Assembly: GCA_001792345.1 (NCBI GenBank)
Contig: MGGJ01000001.1
Location: 1 to 48,485 of the forward strand
Origin: Candidatus Woesebacteria bacterium RIFCSPHIGHO2_01_FULL_39_32
GTDB taxonomy: Bacteria; Patescibacteriota; Microgenomatia; UBA8517
Reading direction: 5' to 3'
DNA: 48,485 bases
Shown here: piece after piece, positions 19,271 to 28,654 of the stretch
Numbering within the stretch: position 1 is the first letter of the stretch
Layout of the letters: each line of letters begins with the position of its first letter
Translations under genes and position numbers: made by a program
The notes under the pieces: generated by a model
Database searches by the model: none
Seen by the model: only the letters and a program-made list of their open reading frames with translations
What the model was told of the DNA's origin: nothing

Positions 19271-19360
19271 GAGCATAATTATGCATCAAAATTGTGATGC
19301 TAGCTACTTAATCAGATTGTGATGCGATTGAAAGAGGCAATCTTTTGGTAAAATTATTGC

Positions 19361-19389
19361 TTGACAAACTCTCTTTTTCGCTATACAAT
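19361..19389 (+). promoter_or_regulatory. sigma70-like promoter of the greA transcript
   Basis: TTGACA (19361) - 17 nt - TACAAT (19384). Confidence 0.75.
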
Positions 19390-19403
19390 TTCCCAGTACC
19401 AAA

Positions 19404-19460
19404 ATGTTATCGACCCCCTCTCTTATTTCTTTTACCCAGGGTATTAATTACTGCGGGTAA
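19404..19460 (+). CDS. Candidate greA leader ORF MLSTPSLISFTQGINYCG*
   Basis: First ATG 14 nt after the -10, 18 codons, contains the 5' arm of a terminator-like helix. Confidence 0.35.
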   Translation: MLSTPSLISFTQGINYCG

Positions 19461-19529
19461 GTTGTGGGAGCCTATTAGATTTTTTTTAAAAACTCCTACA
19501 AGTTCGAAAGAAAAGAGGGTGTTTTTTTT
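19416..19529 (+). promoter_or_regulatory. Structured leader with terminator-like long-range helix upstream of greA
   Basis: CCCTCT(ctta)TTTCTTT 19416-19432 pairs with AAAGAAAAGAGGG 19507-19519, followed by TGTTTTTTTT; internal TACCC/GGGTA and GGAG/CTCC helices. Confidence 0.45.
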
Positions 19530-19539
19530 GATTAAAACC

Positions 19540-20007
19540 ATGAACGGGAACAGTAAAATTCAACTTACAAACGAGGGGATGCAGTCTTTGAAAGGTGAGC
19601 TTGACGAATTGGTTAACGTAAAAAGACCAAAAGCAGTCGAGCGACTTTCTAATGCTCGAAATCAAGGTGATCTTATGGAGAATAGCGACTATCATAACGC
19701 TAAAGACGAACTTGAGTTTTTGGATGGCAGGATTTCTGAACTTGATGATGTTTTGAAAAATGCCGAAGTAGTTCACGCCGGTTCAAACGGTAGCGGTATC
19801 TCCGTGGGAACAAAAGTAACCCTGAAAGTAAACGGCAAAGAGCATGTTTACCATATTGTCGGCGAATGGGAGGCAGATCCTACCCAGAAAAAAATCTCGC
19901 ACACATCTCCCCTAGGTCAAGCGTTAATTGGGAAAAACGTTGGTGAAAAGGTTGAGGTTGAAGCACCAGTTGGTAAAATATTATACGAGATTCTTGAAAT
20001 TCATTAA
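19540..20007 (+). CDS. greA: Transcription elongation factor GreA
   Basis: LTNEGMQSLKGELDELVNVKRPKAVERLSNARNQGDLMENSDYHNAKDE...SPLGQALIGKNVGEKVEVEAP. Confidence 0.95.
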   Translation: MNGNSKIQLTNEGMQSLKGELDELVNVKRPKAVERLSNARNQGDLMENSDYHNAKDELEFLDGRISELDDVLKNAEVVHAGSNGSGISVGTKVTLKVNGKEHVYHIVGEWEADPTQKKISHTSPLGQALIGKNVGEKVEVEAPVGKILYEILEIH

Positions 20008-20032
20008 AAACTACGATATTATAACCGTATTC

Positions 20033-20080
20033 ATGAGAAATTTATTAAATATTATTTCTAAGAAGACAGCAGCTTCCTAA
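20033..20080 (+). CDS. Attenuator leader peptide MRNLLNIISKKTAAS*
   Basis: Promoter TTGAAA-N17-TATTAT (19994-20022) then ATG; same length and KK position as leader at 25211. Confidence 0.75.
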   Translation: MRNLLNIISKKTAAS

Positions 20081-20127
20081 GGAGGTTGTCGTTCTTTTTA
20101 TTGGTAACCTCCGAAAGGAGGTTTTTT
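20060..20127 (+). promoter_or_regulatory. Lys-codon attenuator upstream of tRNA-Lys/dit1
   Basis: GCTTCC/GGAGGT, GGAGGTT (20081-20087)/AACCTCC (20106-20112), and AACCTCC-GAAA-GGAGGTTTTTT (20106-20127) are alternative pairings. Confidence 0.75.
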
Positions 20128-20129
20128 GT

Positions 20130-20201
20130 TGGCTGGTAGCTTAATGGTAAAGCCCCCTCCTTTTAAGAGGGAGACTGCAGGTTCGATTCCTGCCCAGCCA
20201 A
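20130..20201 (+). tRNA. tRNA-Lys (anticodon TTT), CCA not encoded
   Basis: TGGCTGG/CCAGCCA acceptor, CCCTC-CTTTTAA-GAGGG anticodon arm, GCAGGTTCGATTCCTGC T arm. Confidence 0.93.
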
Positions 20202-20210
20202 CAGAGGCTT

Positions 20211-21374
20211 ATGAGTTGTCAAAATAAAATAAAAAAATATATTAAAGAAAATCAAAGTACCATCTTTTCTATCTATGGAGGTGAAACCTATGATAAAAAC
20301 GAATTAAAAAGCCGTTTTGAGATAATCGAACAGTATGATTTTGTTGGATATTTGGAGGATATAAAAGAAAAAGCAGACAGAGCTTTTTCAAAAACATACA
20401 CGAGATCAGAAAAGGTTGCCGAGAACATTATTTCAATAGTTACATCCAATAAGTATTCGCGAAGTGGCGATTACGAGCTTAGTGATAAGAAAAAGTTGGA
20501 GGAGATTATCCAGAAAAAAATTATTAATACCGTTCGCAAAAATCATCGTCTGGGTTTTGTTATACCCGGATTTACTACAAAGGCTTTTAATGTCCTAAGA
20601 GTAGAATCCAGGAGGCTTCCTGATTTGGCAGAATTTGCATCACTTATCAGACTTTACGAGATTTGCTATCAACTTGGGAAAGTTTATCCACATGGGGCAG
20701 AGTTTGTAGTTGTGACAGATGGTTTAGCCTATTCCAAAATTTTCGGAGAAGATCCGTATTTTGCTATTGCACATCGGCAAACTTTGGAAGAATGGACAAG
20801 GAGAGTCGGGATAGAATCGACAATAAGAATAGTTGATCTGACCACACTCTTACCCAAAAATTTCAACGAAGAATATTCTAAAACTTCTAAAGCTCTTTCC
20901 GATGAGTGGTCGAGGATTAAAAACCTTGAAGAATTGACAGATTTTGTTGCCAACACCAAAAATCTTGTTAATTACGAATCAGAAATCGTAGAAGATATGC
21001 GACTTTTTTATCAGTTTCAAGATAACCACGGTGATAGGGAATTAAATAGAGATTTAATAGAACATAAAGTCGTTAATAAAGCGATTCATTCTACTTTCAA
21101 ATACGAAGCATTTTTGCGAACGATGTATAGACTAAATGTAATTGACCATGAATTTAAGGATCATATAAGATGCACAGGTAGGCCTAAGCCGGGACAACTT
21201 GGAATTCATATGATTCACGAGAAATCTTATAACTTTCCTTGGAATGGTGTTGGAGTTTTACGAAAAGATGGACGTATCGATGTATATCCTGAGTATAAAG
21301 TGAAGTATTCTGATAAATTTATCCCGATTTTTATCAAAGGGGACCATTCAGCCTTTTATTACAAAGAAAGATGA
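20211..21374 (+). CDS. Dit1/PvcA-family isonitrile (isocyanide) synthase-like protein
   Basis: FVIPGFTTKAFNVLRVESRRLPDLAEFASLIRLYEICYQLGKVYPHGAEFVVVTDGLAYSKIFGEDPYFAIAHRQTLEEW and FPWNGVGVLRKDGRIDV resemble Dit1_PvcA. Confidence 0.75.
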   Translation: MSCQNKIKKYIKENQSTIFSIYGGETYDKNELKSRFEIIEQYDFVGYLEDIKEKADRAFSKTYTRSEKVAENIISIVTSNKYSRSGDYELSDKKKLEEIIQKKIINTVRKNHRLGFVIPGFTTKAFNVLRVESRRLPDLAEFASLIRLYEICYQLGKVYPHGAEFVVVTDGLAYSKIFGEDPYFAIAHRQTLEEWTRRVGIESTIRIVDLTTLLPKNFNEEYSKTSKALSDEWSRIKNLEELTDFVANTKNLVNYESEIVEDMRLFYQFQDNHGDRELNRDLIEHKVVNKAIHSTFKYEAFLRTMYRLNVIDHEFKDHIRCTGRPKPGQLGIHMIHEKSYNFPWNGVGVLRKDGRIDVYPEYKVKYSDKFIPIFIKGDHSAFYYKER

Positions 21375-21377
21375 ATT

Positions 21378-22436
21378 ATGCGCGATAGATTAATACAAAC
21401 ATTTTATAATTTAGTAAAAATTGATAGTCCGTCGGGAGGGGAAGAGGAGATTATAAAATTTGTGGTTAAGAAGTTAACCGACGCTGGGTGTAAAGTTTAT
21501 GTTGATTCAGCGGGAAATGTTTTGGCAAGATGTAAAGGACTGGGCGAGCCTGTTCTTTTATCCGCCCACCTTGACACCGTTGAACCCGGACGAAATATCA
21601 AACCAAAAATAAAAAACAATTCTTTAGTTAGTGATGATACCACAATTCTCGGAGCCGACAATAAAGTAGCTGTTGCTTCAATACTTGACTCTCTTATTAC
21701 TGTCCCTGCCAATAAAAGACGGTCATTAGAAATTATTTTAAGTGTTCGGGAAGAAACCGACGGAGGAATTAACCATGTTGATTTTTCCGAATTAAAAAGT
21801 AAAGAAGGTTTGGTTGCCGATTCGGGCGAGCCAATTGGGACAGTTATTCTTGCTTCACCTTGGATAGAGGATTTCGAGATCGGTGTTTTTGGCGAAGCAG
21901 CTCACACTAGCACTCCGGAAGAAGGTATTAATGCAATATCGGTTGCTGCAAATGCGATAAGTAATCTAAAGTGGGGAAAAATTAACGAGGTCACAACTAC
22001 TAATATTGGGATAATAAACGGCGGATATGTAACAAACACAGTTCCCCCTTTGGTTGAAATAAAAGGTGAAATCCGTTCTTTTTCACAAGAAAGTTTTAAG
22101 AATGCTAAAAGTAAAATTGACAAGGTCTTTCAAAGTGAGGCAAAAATACTTGGAGCAAAGGCCAGCTTAAACCATTTGTTTTATTGCAAAGGATATCAGA
22201 TACCGAAGGATTCTGAGATTGTACAAAAACTAGCGGGAATATATGGAAAACTTAAAATTACTCCCCGCCTTGTATCTTCGTTCGGTGGGAGCGACGCGAA
22301 TGTTTTAAGAGCTAATGGAATTAATGCGATCAATATCGGCGACGGAGTGGAAAATCCGCATACAGTTGAAGAAAGAGTTTCAGTTAAAAGTTTAGTTCAA
22401 TTGCGGGATATTATTTGCGAATATATTTCTAGTTAG
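21378..22436 (+). CDS. M20-family metallopeptidase (tripeptidase-like)
   Basis: VLLSAHLDTVEPGRNIKP, TILGADNKVAVASILD, VREETDGGIN, FGGSDANVLRANGINAINIGDG. Confidence 0.92.
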   Translation: MRDRLIQTFYNLVKIDSPSGGEEEIIKFVVKKLTDAGCKVYVDSAGNVLARCKGLGEPVLLSAHLDTVEPGRNIKPKIKNNSLVSDDTTILGADNKVAVASILDSLITVPANKRRSLEIILSVREETDGGINHVDFSELKSKEGLVADSGEPIGTVILASPWIEDFEIGVFGEAAHTSTPEEGINAISVAANAISNLKWGKINEVTTTNIGIINGGYVTNTVPPLVEIKGEIRSFSQESFKNAKSKIDKVFQSEAKILGAKASLNHLFYCKGYQIPKDSEIVQKLAGIYGKLKITPRLVSSFGGSDANVLRANGINAINIGDGVENPHTVEERVSVKSLVQLRDIICEYISS

Positions 22437-25210: not shown

Positions 25211-25258
25211 ATGAACTTTTTTGTCGTAAACTTTTCTAAGAAGGCAGAAACCTCCTAA
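25211..25258 (+). CDS. Attenuator leader peptide MNFFVVNFSKKAETS*
   Basis: 15 codons, KK at codons 10-11 and Ser at 9 and 15, as in leader at 20033. Confidence 0.75.
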   Translation: MNFFVVNFSKKAETS

Positions 25259-25309
25259 GCGGGCGGTTCCTGTTTTTTTGTGGACAACCTCCCGCAAGGG
25301 AGGTTTTTT
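25238..25309 (+). promoter_or_regulatory. Lys-codon attenuator upstream of radical SAM/lysS
   Basis: GCGGGCGGTT (25259-25268) pairs with AACCTCCCGC (25286-25295, one mismatch); alternative terminator AACCTCCC-GCAA-GGGAGGTTTTTT (25286-25309). Confidence 0.78.
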
Positions 25310-25325: not shown

Positions 25326-26300
25326 ATGTCAGAAAGATTAATACCAGTTTCCGAGTTAGAAACAACTGCGAATCAAGAAGCAGAAGTACATCACATTGAT
25401 TGGGTTGTAATTCAATTGACAGACACCTGCCAGCATATGTGTCCCTATTGCATAAATTCAGACGGTCCTCATAAAAGAAATGTCGCAAGTGTGGACATGA
25501 TTCAGGAAATACTTGCAAGGTTTAGGCCGAGAAAAGTTGAATATACGGGTGGAGATCCCAGTACGAGATTTAATTTACTACTTTCTGGAATAGAACTTGC
25601 CCGTGAATCGGGGGCAGAAGAAATTATGTTTAACACAAACATGGAGCTATTGAATTCGGAAAAAGTAGGTAAACTTGAACAGGCTGGGTTGACGGCAATC
25701 CACTTTGCTCTTCATACTTTAGACCGAGAGAGACATAAAGTGGTTAGAGGCAACAGGAATGCGAGTTTAGATAAAGTGTTGGAAAACTTTGATAATGCGC
25801 TTCAGGGAACAAACTTGGATTTTATTATTGAATATGTTCCTATGAAATTACCTAATGGGGAGAATAATTTAGCCGATTTAGAAAGTGTATATAAATATGT
25901 ATTGGGAAAAAGGGAAGCCTATGGTGCACGTATCAAATCTTTAGAAATAGGAAATCTGATACCAAGAGGGAGAGCAACTCTAGACATGATGTTACCGTTG
26001 GAAGAGCAAGTTGGGGCGATAGAACATGCGATAGAACAACCGGAGATGCCGATTGAGATATACTGTTATGGAAGAGAGGCTACAGAAAGACTTAAAGGAA
26101 AAGGGTTTGTTGTGAATACCTGCTTTGCGGGTAGATCGATGTTTTATTTTACAGTTGATGGTAAAGTGTTAGCAGATAATTTCACGGGTGTAGCGGTTGC
26201 CAGCGATTATAGACAGTTTGACGGAAGATCACCATTGATGAGCAATTTAAATTTTGGAGAGGGTTTGGCGTTTTGTCCATTTGTTGTTCAAGATTCTTAG
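25326..26300 (+). CDS. Radical SAM protein (MoaA-like)
   Basis: DTCQHMCPYCINSDG (CX3CX2C), YTGGDPSTRF. Confidence 0.88.
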   Translation: MSERLIPVSELETTANQEAEVHHIDWVVIQLTDTCQHMCPYCINSDGPHKRNVASVDMIQEILARFRPRKVEYTGGDPSTRFNLLLSGIELARESGAEEIMFNTNMELLNSEKVGKLEQAGLTAIHFALHTLDRERHKVVRGNRNASLDKVLENFDNALQGTNLDFIIEYVPMKLPNGENNLADLESVYKYVLGKREAYGARIKSLEIGNLIPRGRATLDMMLPLEEQVGAIEHAIEQPEMPIEIYCYGREATERLKGKGFVVNTCFAGRSMFYFTVDGKVLADNFTGVAVASDYRQFDGRSPLMSNLNFGEGLAFCPFVVQDS

Positions 26301-26347: not shown

Positions 26348-28654
26348 ATGGCTACGCACTGGGCAGACAGAATTGCAAAAGAAATAATTACTTCGGGAAA
26401 GTATAAACCTTACTGGGTGGATGATATGAAGACCCCGTCGGGCTTCTCACATGTGGGATCTTTAATGGGTCCTTTAATTCACAGTATGATTTTCAGAGCA
26501 CTAAAAGATGCGGGGAAAGACGGAAATTTTACTTTTGTTATAAATGACTTTGATCCTGCAGACGATTTACTACCTGAGTTAAAAGGTAAATATGAAAAAT
26601 ATTTGGGAATACCCCTAAAACTTGCACCTTCTCCCGACACTAAATTTGGAAGTATGGCAGACCTATTTGGGAGTGATTTTATTTCTTCAATTAGAAGTTT
26701 AGGGGTCGAAGCGGAAATTCTGTCGTCTTGGGAAATGTATCACCAGGGTAAGTTTGATGAAGTCATACGTATAGCATTGGATAATGCAGAAAAAATTCAA
26801 GATATTTATCAAAAAGTAAGCGGTAGCAAGAAAAAAGAAGCCGGATGGCTTCCCTTCCAAGTAATTTGTGAGAATTGTAGCAAGCTTGGAACCACAAAAG
26901 TTTTTGCTTGGGACGGCGAAAAGGTTTCTTATAAGTGTGAACCCGCCCTGGTAAAATGGGCGGTCGGTTGCGGTCACGAAGGGAAAATTTCCCCTTTTGG
27001 AGGAACGGGTAAACTTCCTTGGAAAGTGGATTGGGCTGCGCATTGGAAAGTAATCGGAGTTACGATTGAAGGAGCCGGAAAAGACCATGCTTCAGCCGGA
27101 GGATCGTATGACATTGCAATGACTATTTGCAAAGAAGTCTTTAAATACGATCAGCCATATAAATTTCCATATGAATTTATTCTTATTGGCGGAAGAAAAA
27201 TGTCCTCATCAAAAGGTTTAGGGTTAAAAGCACATGACTTAGTAAAAATATTACCCCCTAGCGTTGGAAGATTTCTTTTCGCAAGATCGGATATTAGGTC
27301 ACAAAGTAATTTCGATCCAATGGGGACAATGGCAATTCCGGATCTTTTTGACGAATACGACAAAGCATGGGAAGCATATGACAAGGGCGGGTACGAGAAG
27401 TTGGCAAGAACCTATGTTTTGTCGCAGATAGATAAAATTCCCGAAAAAGAAAAAGGTTTTTTTGCGCCAAGATTTAAGGATGTAGCAAATTATCTTTCTC
27501 AAGGTTTATCGGAAGATGAACTTCTTGAGAAATTTACGGAAATAAAAGGAGGAAAACTTGATGAGAGCGAGCTTACTATTTTGGAGGAAAGAATTAAATA
27601 TGCAGAAGTTTGGCTTTCCGATTATGCACCAGATGAATATCGTTTCGATATGACCGATACGGTTCCGGAAGAAACTACAAAATTAACTGAAGAACAAAAG
27701 AAATATTTAAAGGGAATATTGAAAATTTTTAATGAGGGGGATGACGCAAAAAGCCTTCAAATTTCTTTGTATGAGTTAACAAAAGAACTGCAAGTTCCTA
27801 TTAAAGATGCTTTTGAGTCAATATATTTAGCGTTTATCGGAAAAACACGGGGTCCAAGAGCGGGGATGCTACTTTCTAAATTTGGAAAAAGGAAGGTAGT
27901 CGAAAGGATAATGGAGGCCACTGGGAAGAAAGGTAAATCCTATTTAAGCCAAAAGGTTAATTTAATTGATGTTCCAAAATATTTTTCTATCGATCCGAAA
28001 GTAAAAGAAGCATACCCTTCGGTTTCGGTTGGCATTGCTTTGATTAAGGGCATTTCGGTTTCGAAAACAAATAGTGAGTTGCAAGAAGAAATTGATAAGT
28101 TTTCCGATGAACAAAAGAATCTAACTACAGAGGTTTTAGGAAGTTATCCTGAAATACTTAGCTACAGAAGACTTTATAAAGAAATGGGAATTGATTGGCA
28201 TTCAAAAAGACCGGGTCCTGAGGAATTGTTAAGAAGGGTTGCTCTAAAAAAGGGATTATATAGTATTAATAACTGCGTTGACGCTTATAATTTAGTGGTT
28301 ATGAGGAACAGAATTTCAGTTGGTGCTTTCGATGCGGATAAAGTTGTCTTTCCTACAACCCTACGTTTTGCTGAGGAGGGAGACGAGATTATTCTCATAG
28401 GTAATAAAGAACCGGTCAAATATACCGCCAAAGAGCTGGCTTACTACGATCAAAAAGGAGGATATAACACGGATTTTAATTATCGAGATGCACAAAGAAC
28501 AATGGTTACGGACAAAACAAAGAATGCCTGGATTAACGTAGATGGAATTTATGATACAACGCCCGAAAAAGTTCAAAAAACACTTGATGAAGCGCTAGAC
28601 TTAATACTTAAGTATTGCGGCGGTAAGCTGGAGTTTAAAGGAGTAGCTATATAA
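26348..28654 (+). CDS. lysS: Class I lysyl-tRNA synthetase with C-terminal B3/4 domain
   Basis: DDMKTPSGFSHVGSLMGPLIHS, GGRKMSSSKGLGL; C-terminal YFSIDPKVKEAYPSVSVGIALIKG...LYKEMGIDWHSKRPGPEELLRRVALKKGLYSINNCVDAYNLVVMRNRISVGAFDADKV resembles B3/4. Confidence 0.92.
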   Translation: MATHWADRIAKEIITSGKYKPYWVDDMKTPSGFSHVGSLMGPLIHSMIFRALKDAGKDGNFTFVINDFDPADDLLPELKGKYEKYLGIPLKLAPSPDTKFGSMADLFGSDFISSIRSLGVEAEILSSWEMYHQGKFDEVIRIALDNAEKIQDIYQKVSGSKKKEAGWLPFQVICENCSKLGTTKVFAWDGEKVSYKCEPALVKWAVGCGHEGKISPFGGTGKLPWKVDWAAHWKVIGVTIEGAGKDHASAGGSYDIAMTICKEVFKYDQPYKFPYEFILIGGRKMSSSKGLGLKAHDLVKILPPSVGRFLFARSDIRSQSNFDPMGTMAIPDLFDEYDKAWEAYDKGGYEKLARTYVLSQIDKIPEKEKGFFAPRFKDVANYLSQGLSEDELLEKFTEIKGGKLDESELTILEERIKYAEVWLSDYAPDEYRFDMTDTVPEETTKLTEEQKKYLKGILKIFNEGDDAKSLQISLYELTKELQVPIKDAFESIYLAFIGKTRGPRAGMLLSKFGKRKVVERIMEATGKKGKSYLSQKVNLIDVPKYFSIDPKVKEAYPSVSVGIALIKGISVSKTNSELQEEIDKFSDEQKNLTTEVLGSYPEILSYRRLYKEMGIDWHSKRPGPEELLRRVALKKGLYSINNCVDAYNLVVMRNRISVGAFDADKVVFPTTLRFAEEGDEIILIGNKEPVKYTAKELAYYDQKGGYNTDFNYRDAQRTMVTDKTKNAWINVDGIYDTTPEKVQKTLDEALDLILKYCGGKLEFKGVAI

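Follow-up and report, generated by a model that had tools for sequence, protein, structure and literature searches.

A predicted lysine-sensing leader-peptide attenuator upstream of a tRNA-Lys gene in a Candidatus Woesebacteria genome

The sequence between greA and a tRNA-Lys gene in Candidatus Woesebacteria bacterium RIFCSPHIGHO2_01_FULL_39_32 is predicted, with high confidence, to be a translation-dependent transcription attenuator of the trp/his type that senses charged tRNA-Lys. The element is located in a 48,485-nucleotide stretch of DNA (hereafter referred to as the window) and displays every defining feature of trp/his-type attenuators that is decidable from sequence alone. The folding models and sequence comparisons presented below support the original prediction, which proposed that trp/his-type attenuation is here tuned to lysine.

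The leader, its alternative stems and the predicted switch

The gene directly 5' of the element is greA (19345–20007; all coordinates given for the window refer to features on the forward strand), which codes for a transcription elongation factor assigned by Pfam and NCBIfam GreA, and greA is also located upstream of the Lys leader at five loci in relatives (L002, L004, L010, L021 and L028). The leader ORF read from the sequence (20033–20080) extends from an ATG at 20033 to a TAA at 20078–20080, encodes the peptide MRNLLNIISKKTAAS and has homologous leaders in relatives. Codons 10 and 11 of this ORF, AAG AAG (20060–20065), provide two cognate codons and constitute the putative sensor according to ribosome-position folding, and the KK pair is kept in the homologues. 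The end of the leader ORF, segment 1 (20060–20077), pairs around the TAA with segment 2, GGAGGTTGTCG (20081–20091), which begins with GGAGGTT (20081–20087) and has a choice of partners: segment 1, as a pause or anti-antiterminator stem, or segment 3, as the antiterminator. Segment 3, TGGTAACCTCC (20102–20112), can form 11 base pairs with segment 2 or 7 base pairs with segment 4, and the 3:4 pairing is an intrinsic terminator (20106–20127) composed of AACCTCC (20106–20112), GAAA (20113–20116) and GGAGGTTTTTT (20117–20127), which precedes the first regulated gene, tRNA-Lys. On folding, the 1:2, 2:3 and 3:4 pairings were mutually exclusive. None of 200 shuffled sequences was as stable as the native fold (z = −3.8), and the 1:2 and 2:3 pairings each exceeded all 500 shuffles (p = 0.002 each). 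Two copies of the leader-tail pattern are present in the window (20057 and 25235), as compared to none in 100 shuffles. The leader ORF, the Lys codons, GGAGGTT, the terminator, the tRNA and the isonitrile synthase gene all lie where the original prediction had placed them, and its two competing stems were recovered as exclusive pairings that stand above the shuffled background.

The switch had been proposed to depend on the lysine codons, and it falls exactly at AAG AAG when the RNA left free is folded with the ribosomal A site placed on each leader codon in turn. The terminator probability was about 0.9 with the ribosome on the first leader codons, 0.000 and 0.038 as the two AAG codons occupied the A site in turn, and 0.957 with the ribosome at the stop, with a value of 0.95 obtained without a ribosome; in silico, stalling frees segment 2, while a ribosome at the stop covers it. 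When the assumed ribosome edge was varied over 9–16 nt, the dip in terminator probability remained on the AAG pair or immediately beside it. When the ribosome occupied the first AAG, the RNA outside it folded into the 11-bp 2:3 stem, and the rest of segment 1 paired with segment 4. At fixed offsets, 32 of 40 leaders showed the switch, whereas of 56 further terminators drawn from the same DNA, 5 did so. These leaders were chosen by eye, as they were for the peptide survey, the pairing shuffles and the −10 survey. Support for the pairings was drawn from ribosome-position folding and shuffles in place of covariation counts, and an alignment of 50 matches that includes reverse-strand hits (A4) was left aside. 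Equilibrium folding, which takes no account of the 2:3 stem forming before segment 4 exists, revealed no switch in the homologues L028 and L163 and only a partial one in L004, for which the 2:3 pairing was not significant when compared with shuffles (p = 0.19).

We infer that the sensed signal is charged tRNA-Lys at the AAG codons, and that leader translation, stalling, termination and readthrough would proceed in cells as follows. When lysyl-tRNA is plentiful, the ribosome would clear AAG AAG, arrive at the TAA and cover segment 2, upon which segments 3 and 4 would form the terminator and RNA polymerase would halt before tRNA-Lys. When lysyl-tRNA is scarce, a ribosome stalled on AAG AAG would cover most of segment 1 and leave segment 2 free to pair with segment 3, and transcription would extend across tRNA-Lys and the two genes behind it, which encode the isonitrile-synthase-like protein and the M20 peptidase. 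Without translation, the 1:2 and 3:4 pairings would form and transcription would halt.

A second copy of the element is located at 25211 in the window. Its leader ORF, MNFFVVNFSKKAETS (25211–25258), has the same stop context as in the first element and is followed by its segment 2, GCGGGCGGTT (25259–25268), which shows one mismatch in its complementarity to 25286–25295 (2:3 pairing not significant, p = 0.074), and by a terminator that has the same design on folding, AACCTCCC-GCAA-GGGAGGTTTTTT (25286–25309). Downstream are the genes for a radical SAM protein (25326–26300), assigned by profile matches, and a class I lysyl-tRNA synthetase (26348–28654; TIGR00467, 1e-109), which are putatively regulated by the second element and would be governed by it in the same manner. 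Since the second copy precedes these two genes, both elements in the window are associated with lysine translation genes. The original prediction named the 25211 element but did not draw on this connection. The genes 5' of the second copy are located on the opposite strand, and this copy therefore needs a promoter of its own. The class I LysRS in the window has an appended C-terminal B3/4 domain (residues 606–758), which is a domain familiar from PheRS beta and unusual in LysRS.

Leaders with cognate codons in related genomes

A degenerate pattern search identified homologues in two genomes of the family, G010 and G006, and the nearest named relatives with homologues are Candidatus Woesebacteria. 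In G010, a leader ending in VISKKATAS follows greA, with its start overlapping the greA stop, and LysRS class II is encoded by the third gene in the operon. In G006, the leader MQKIVIIVSKKTVSS also follows greA and precedes a run of genes that begins with lysW, lysX and an argC-like gene; LysRS class I is encoded about 8.8 kb downstream. A covariance model trained on four Lys elements was run on 52 genomes from the family and 384 genomes from the class; as its training set consisted of Lys elements and its E-values are approximate, the element frequencies are lower bounds. Further Lys leaders were identified ahead of LysRS class II in G019, G077, G198, G216 and G286, and in the last three of these genomes an M20 peptidase gene is located between the leader and the synthetase gene, with the G198 and G216 proteins being 46% identical to the M20 peptidase in the window. 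The original prediction considered a lack of homologous leaders with Lys codons and alternative stems in relatives to be fatal to its claim; the searches instead recovered Lys leaders of the same design before LysRS, LysW-pathway or M20-LysRS operons in seven other genomes.

The genes located downstream of the Lys leaders serve lysine: tRNA-Lys, LysRS, the lysWX operon and M20-LysRS. A KK pair in the leader body was found in 12 matches, ten of which are located in or before LysRS, LysW-pathway, tRNA-Lys or M20-LysRS operons; at L163, the LysRS-II gene is several kb downstream of the KK leader. The two exceptions are L027, where the leader is an rplT tail preceding pheS, and L094, which lacks a lysine gene within about 4 kb. 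The distribution of the Lys element is sporadic, and it is absent before most LysRS genes of the family. An exact-pattern scan of GTDB returned two CPR contigs, which correspond to the loci in G010 and G006, and matches in Clostridium and Aureivirga, which we take to be chance, about two being expected by estimate. A phylum-wide search with R1 gave matches in 13 of 384 genomes, with no convincing cognate leaders outside the class. A T-box in the source genome (L204, G000:C12:76263) precedes a gene for a 420-aa protein without a Pfam match, which by eye resembles the 437-aa gene located after the Lys attenuator in G010 (L002 1585–2895), such that similar genes are found behind two different sensors.

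The Lys-trained covariance model also recovered leaders for Thr, Met, Phe, His, Cys, Arg and Leu before the cognate synthetases (identities by NCBIfam). Leaders with TTTT precede ThrRS, those with MMEM or MMDMM precede MetRS, either directly or with one gene intervening, and those with FF or FFF precede PheS, while FYFYF was found before an operon extending from DAHP synthase to PheST. Likewise, HH or HHH precedes HisRS, CC precedes CysRS, CTC precedes cysteine synthase, RR precedes ArgRS and LLL precedes LeuRS. For the 50 matches with a synthetase or cysteine synthase downstream, the leaders were chosen automatically and the last ten codons were scored: these leaders contain 140 cognate residues, as compared to a mean of 51.3 by permutation (maximum 85 in 20,000). 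Also when only the non-Lys leaders were considered, 118 cognate residues were counted, as compared to 47.0 by permutation (maximum 79).

Tails resembling rplT (ribosomal protein L20), such as GFFFTS, seem to serve as the Phe leader of the following pheS attenuator (L016, L022, L014, L018, L020, L026, L027 and L032). When rplT and greA tails were folded as leaders, support was obtained for L016 and L022 and not for L014, L018 and L028. Two Thr-type attenuators are located in tandem before one ThrRS gene (L102/L131, G335:C57:7524–8117).

Transcription of the leader and competing explanations

The original prediction placed a promoter, TTGAAA-N17-TATTAT (19994–20022), ahead of the leader. The sequence is present as claimed, but is partly contained in the 3' end of greA, and with a 10/12 match to the consensus and three promoter-like matches found versus 1.0 expected by chance it points only weakly to a promoter, so that a local promoter is plausible rather than established. 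The −10 hexamer ends 10 nt upstream of the leader ATG, and the transcript would be nearly leaderless; no Shine-Dalgarno sequence was found ahead of the leader ORF. In most leaders of the class, a −10-like hexamer lies 4–11 nt upstream of the ATG (an exact TATAAT in seven), which is consistent with leaderless messages. Possibly, although we hold this to be somewhat doubtful, the attenuator has no promoter of its own and the leader is transcribed and translated within the greA message, either by reinitiation or, in some relatives, with the last codons of greA as the leader. Such an arrangement is a variant of the attenuator explanation and is compatible with lysine sensing. The leader without a Shine-Dalgarno sequence and the weak promoter match agree with it, as do the G010 leader that starts within the greA stop and the greA tail of L021 and L028, which has a Lys codon and segment 1 and may itself be the leader. 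The spacing of the TTGAAA-N17-TATTAT match, the hexamers at a short distance from the ATG throughout most of the class and the second copy behind opposite-strand genes argue for local transcription instead.

More distant from the predicted attenuator is an ordinary intrinsic terminator of greA, accompanied by a small ORF and an extra GGAGGTT that are both present by chance. The terminator does lie directly 3' of greA, and a plain terminator is located between greA and lysS in G024, G057 and G018, but the leader tail recurs at 25235 and before lysine genes elsewhere, the 1:2 and 2:3 pairings stand above shuffles, the fold switches exactly at AAG AAG and the codons match the cognate amino acid across 50 leaders, which makes this explanation exceedingly improbable. 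It could also be argued that the element senses free ribosomes or general translation, or encodes a Ser-Lys-Lys arrest peptide, rather than responding to lysyl-tRNA, since GGAGGTT/AACCTCC is similar to a Shine-Dalgarno/anti-Shine-Dalgarno pair and SKK is common to the four closest leaders. However, in leaders of the same architecture SKK gives way to TTTT, MMEM, FFF, HHH, CC or RR, depending on which synthetase lies downstream, and the other Lys leaders read FKKA, AKKH, NKKN and LKKA. Because the residues track the downstream synthetase and the KK contexts vary, codon identity fits these leaders, rather than a single arrest peptide, and we consider this explanation very unlikely.

The predicted target genes and comparison with known systems

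The first gene under the control of the predicted lysine attenuator, tRNA-Lys(UUU) with the anticodon TTT (20130–20202, ARAGORN), is the second of two divergent tRNA-Lys(UUU) genes in the genome and is 71% identical to the other copy. That copy (L236 613–685) is located in a Glu-Lys-Gln cluster. In total, 47 tRNAs were found in the genome, which is 95% complete, and these include two tRNA-Lys(UUU) and no tRNA-Lys(CUU), with C-starting anticodons present for many other boxes; AAG is thus presumably read by wobble. AAG accounts for 19 of the 24 Lys codons in the leaders, as compared to 24% of those in the window genes (p = 2e-8).

The tRNA gene is followed by an isonitrile-synthase-like gene (20211–21374) with a Pfam match to PF05141 DIT1_PvcA (3e-23) and by a gene for a PepT/DapE/ArgE-like peptidase of the M20 family (21378–22436), assigned by profile matches, both of which are putatively regulated. 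In other families, homologues of the M20 peptidase gene separate the Lys attenuator from LysRS. No close relatives of the isonitrile-synthase-like protein were identified in a protein search of GTDB and IMG/VR, and PF05141 is itself uncommon, with 6 of 384 class genomes carrying it; conservation of the gene therefore provides no argument for the element. Of the proposed control of this operon by lysine limitation, the lysine switch is supported in silico, whereas the induction of the isonitrile-synthase-like gene by lysine shortage would follow from its position in the operon.

Homologues of PF05141 adjoin synthetase genes at three loci: L172 (G009:C1:66000–73500), L173 (G000:C6:63500–71500) and L119 (G268). 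In G009 and on C6 of the source genome, the homologue is followed by the gene for a Trp/Tyr-class synthetase whose N-terminus carries an editing domain, and tRNA-Trp lies 5' of the homologue in G009 and tRNA-Met on C6. The leader before these two homologues, AGGGTGGCAC with a terminator, looks T-box-like, and RF00230 gives it no score. By eye, two PF05141 copies precede a TrpRS-like gene in G268. In CPR bacteria, PF05141 proteins may act in connection with tRNAs or synthetases. We assign little probability to a more speculative scenario, in which a class-wide code of Microgenomates-type CPR bacteria swaps only the sensing codons and the divergent tRNA-Lys(UUU), induced by starvation, cooperates with the isonitrile-synthase-like enzyme whose gene lies 8 nt downstream, with the neighbours of PF05141 hinting at an unrecognised role linked to tRNAs or synthetases.

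CPR bacteria are mostly uncultured, with genomes near 1 Mb, and very little is known about their gene regulation. The codons just 5' of the leader stop would provide a readable code that names an amino acid and ties the downstream genes to it, which offers functional leads for unnamed operon genes, such as those for the M20 peptidase, the radical SAM protein and PF05141. Lysine, as well as Thr, Met, Phe, His, Cys, Arg and Leu before synthetases, would be added to leader-peptide attenuation in the class, and a tRNA gene is predicted to be placed under the control of its own charging state. The attenuator is testable with short reporters.

Synthetase genes can be governed by T-box riboswitches, which answer to tRNA charging via a terminator/antiterminator, and lysine genes in other bacteria are governed through attenuation by the lysine riboswitch, RF00168. 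T-boxes (RF00230) are present in the class and elsewhere in the source genome (C13:20193 and C12:76263), but the covariance model gave no match in the window, including the leader, and unlike the T-box, where the tRNA is bound by the RNA, the sensor here would be a ribosome on the leader ORF. No match to RF00168 was found in the window and none over the cut-off in 114 class genomes, and the window contains no match to Rfam families apart from tRNAs. A literature search, with most subscription journals outside its reach, retrieved no account of leader-peptide attenuation that responds to lysine, that occurs in CPR bacteria or that controls a tRNA gene.

The gammaproteobacterial attenuators of the trp, his, thr, leu and phe systems, including E. 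coli pheST, consist of a leader ORF with repeated cognate codons, segments 1–4 and an intrinsic terminator. The predicted element is similar to these in its short leader with cognate codons, in the 1:2, 2:3 and 3:4 pairings, in the terminator and in the biosynthesis or synthetase genes downstream. It differs from known trp/his-type attenuators in the amino acid, which here is lysine, in the phylum, with a CPR host, and in having a tRNA gene as the first target, and its leader ORF lacks a Shine-Dalgarno sequence. A comparative study of Actinobacteria described attenuators of the classical kind ahead of the Streptomyces genes trpS and leuS, cited pheST, and placed lysine operons in other species under the L-box riboswitch (PMC1262725). 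The Streptomyces elements share with those predicted here the leader-peptide attenuation of aminoacyl-tRNA synthetase genes (PMC1262725), but are described in that study for Trp and Leu only, whereas leaders for Lys, Thr, Met, Phe, His, Cys, Arg and Leu are here found within one class.
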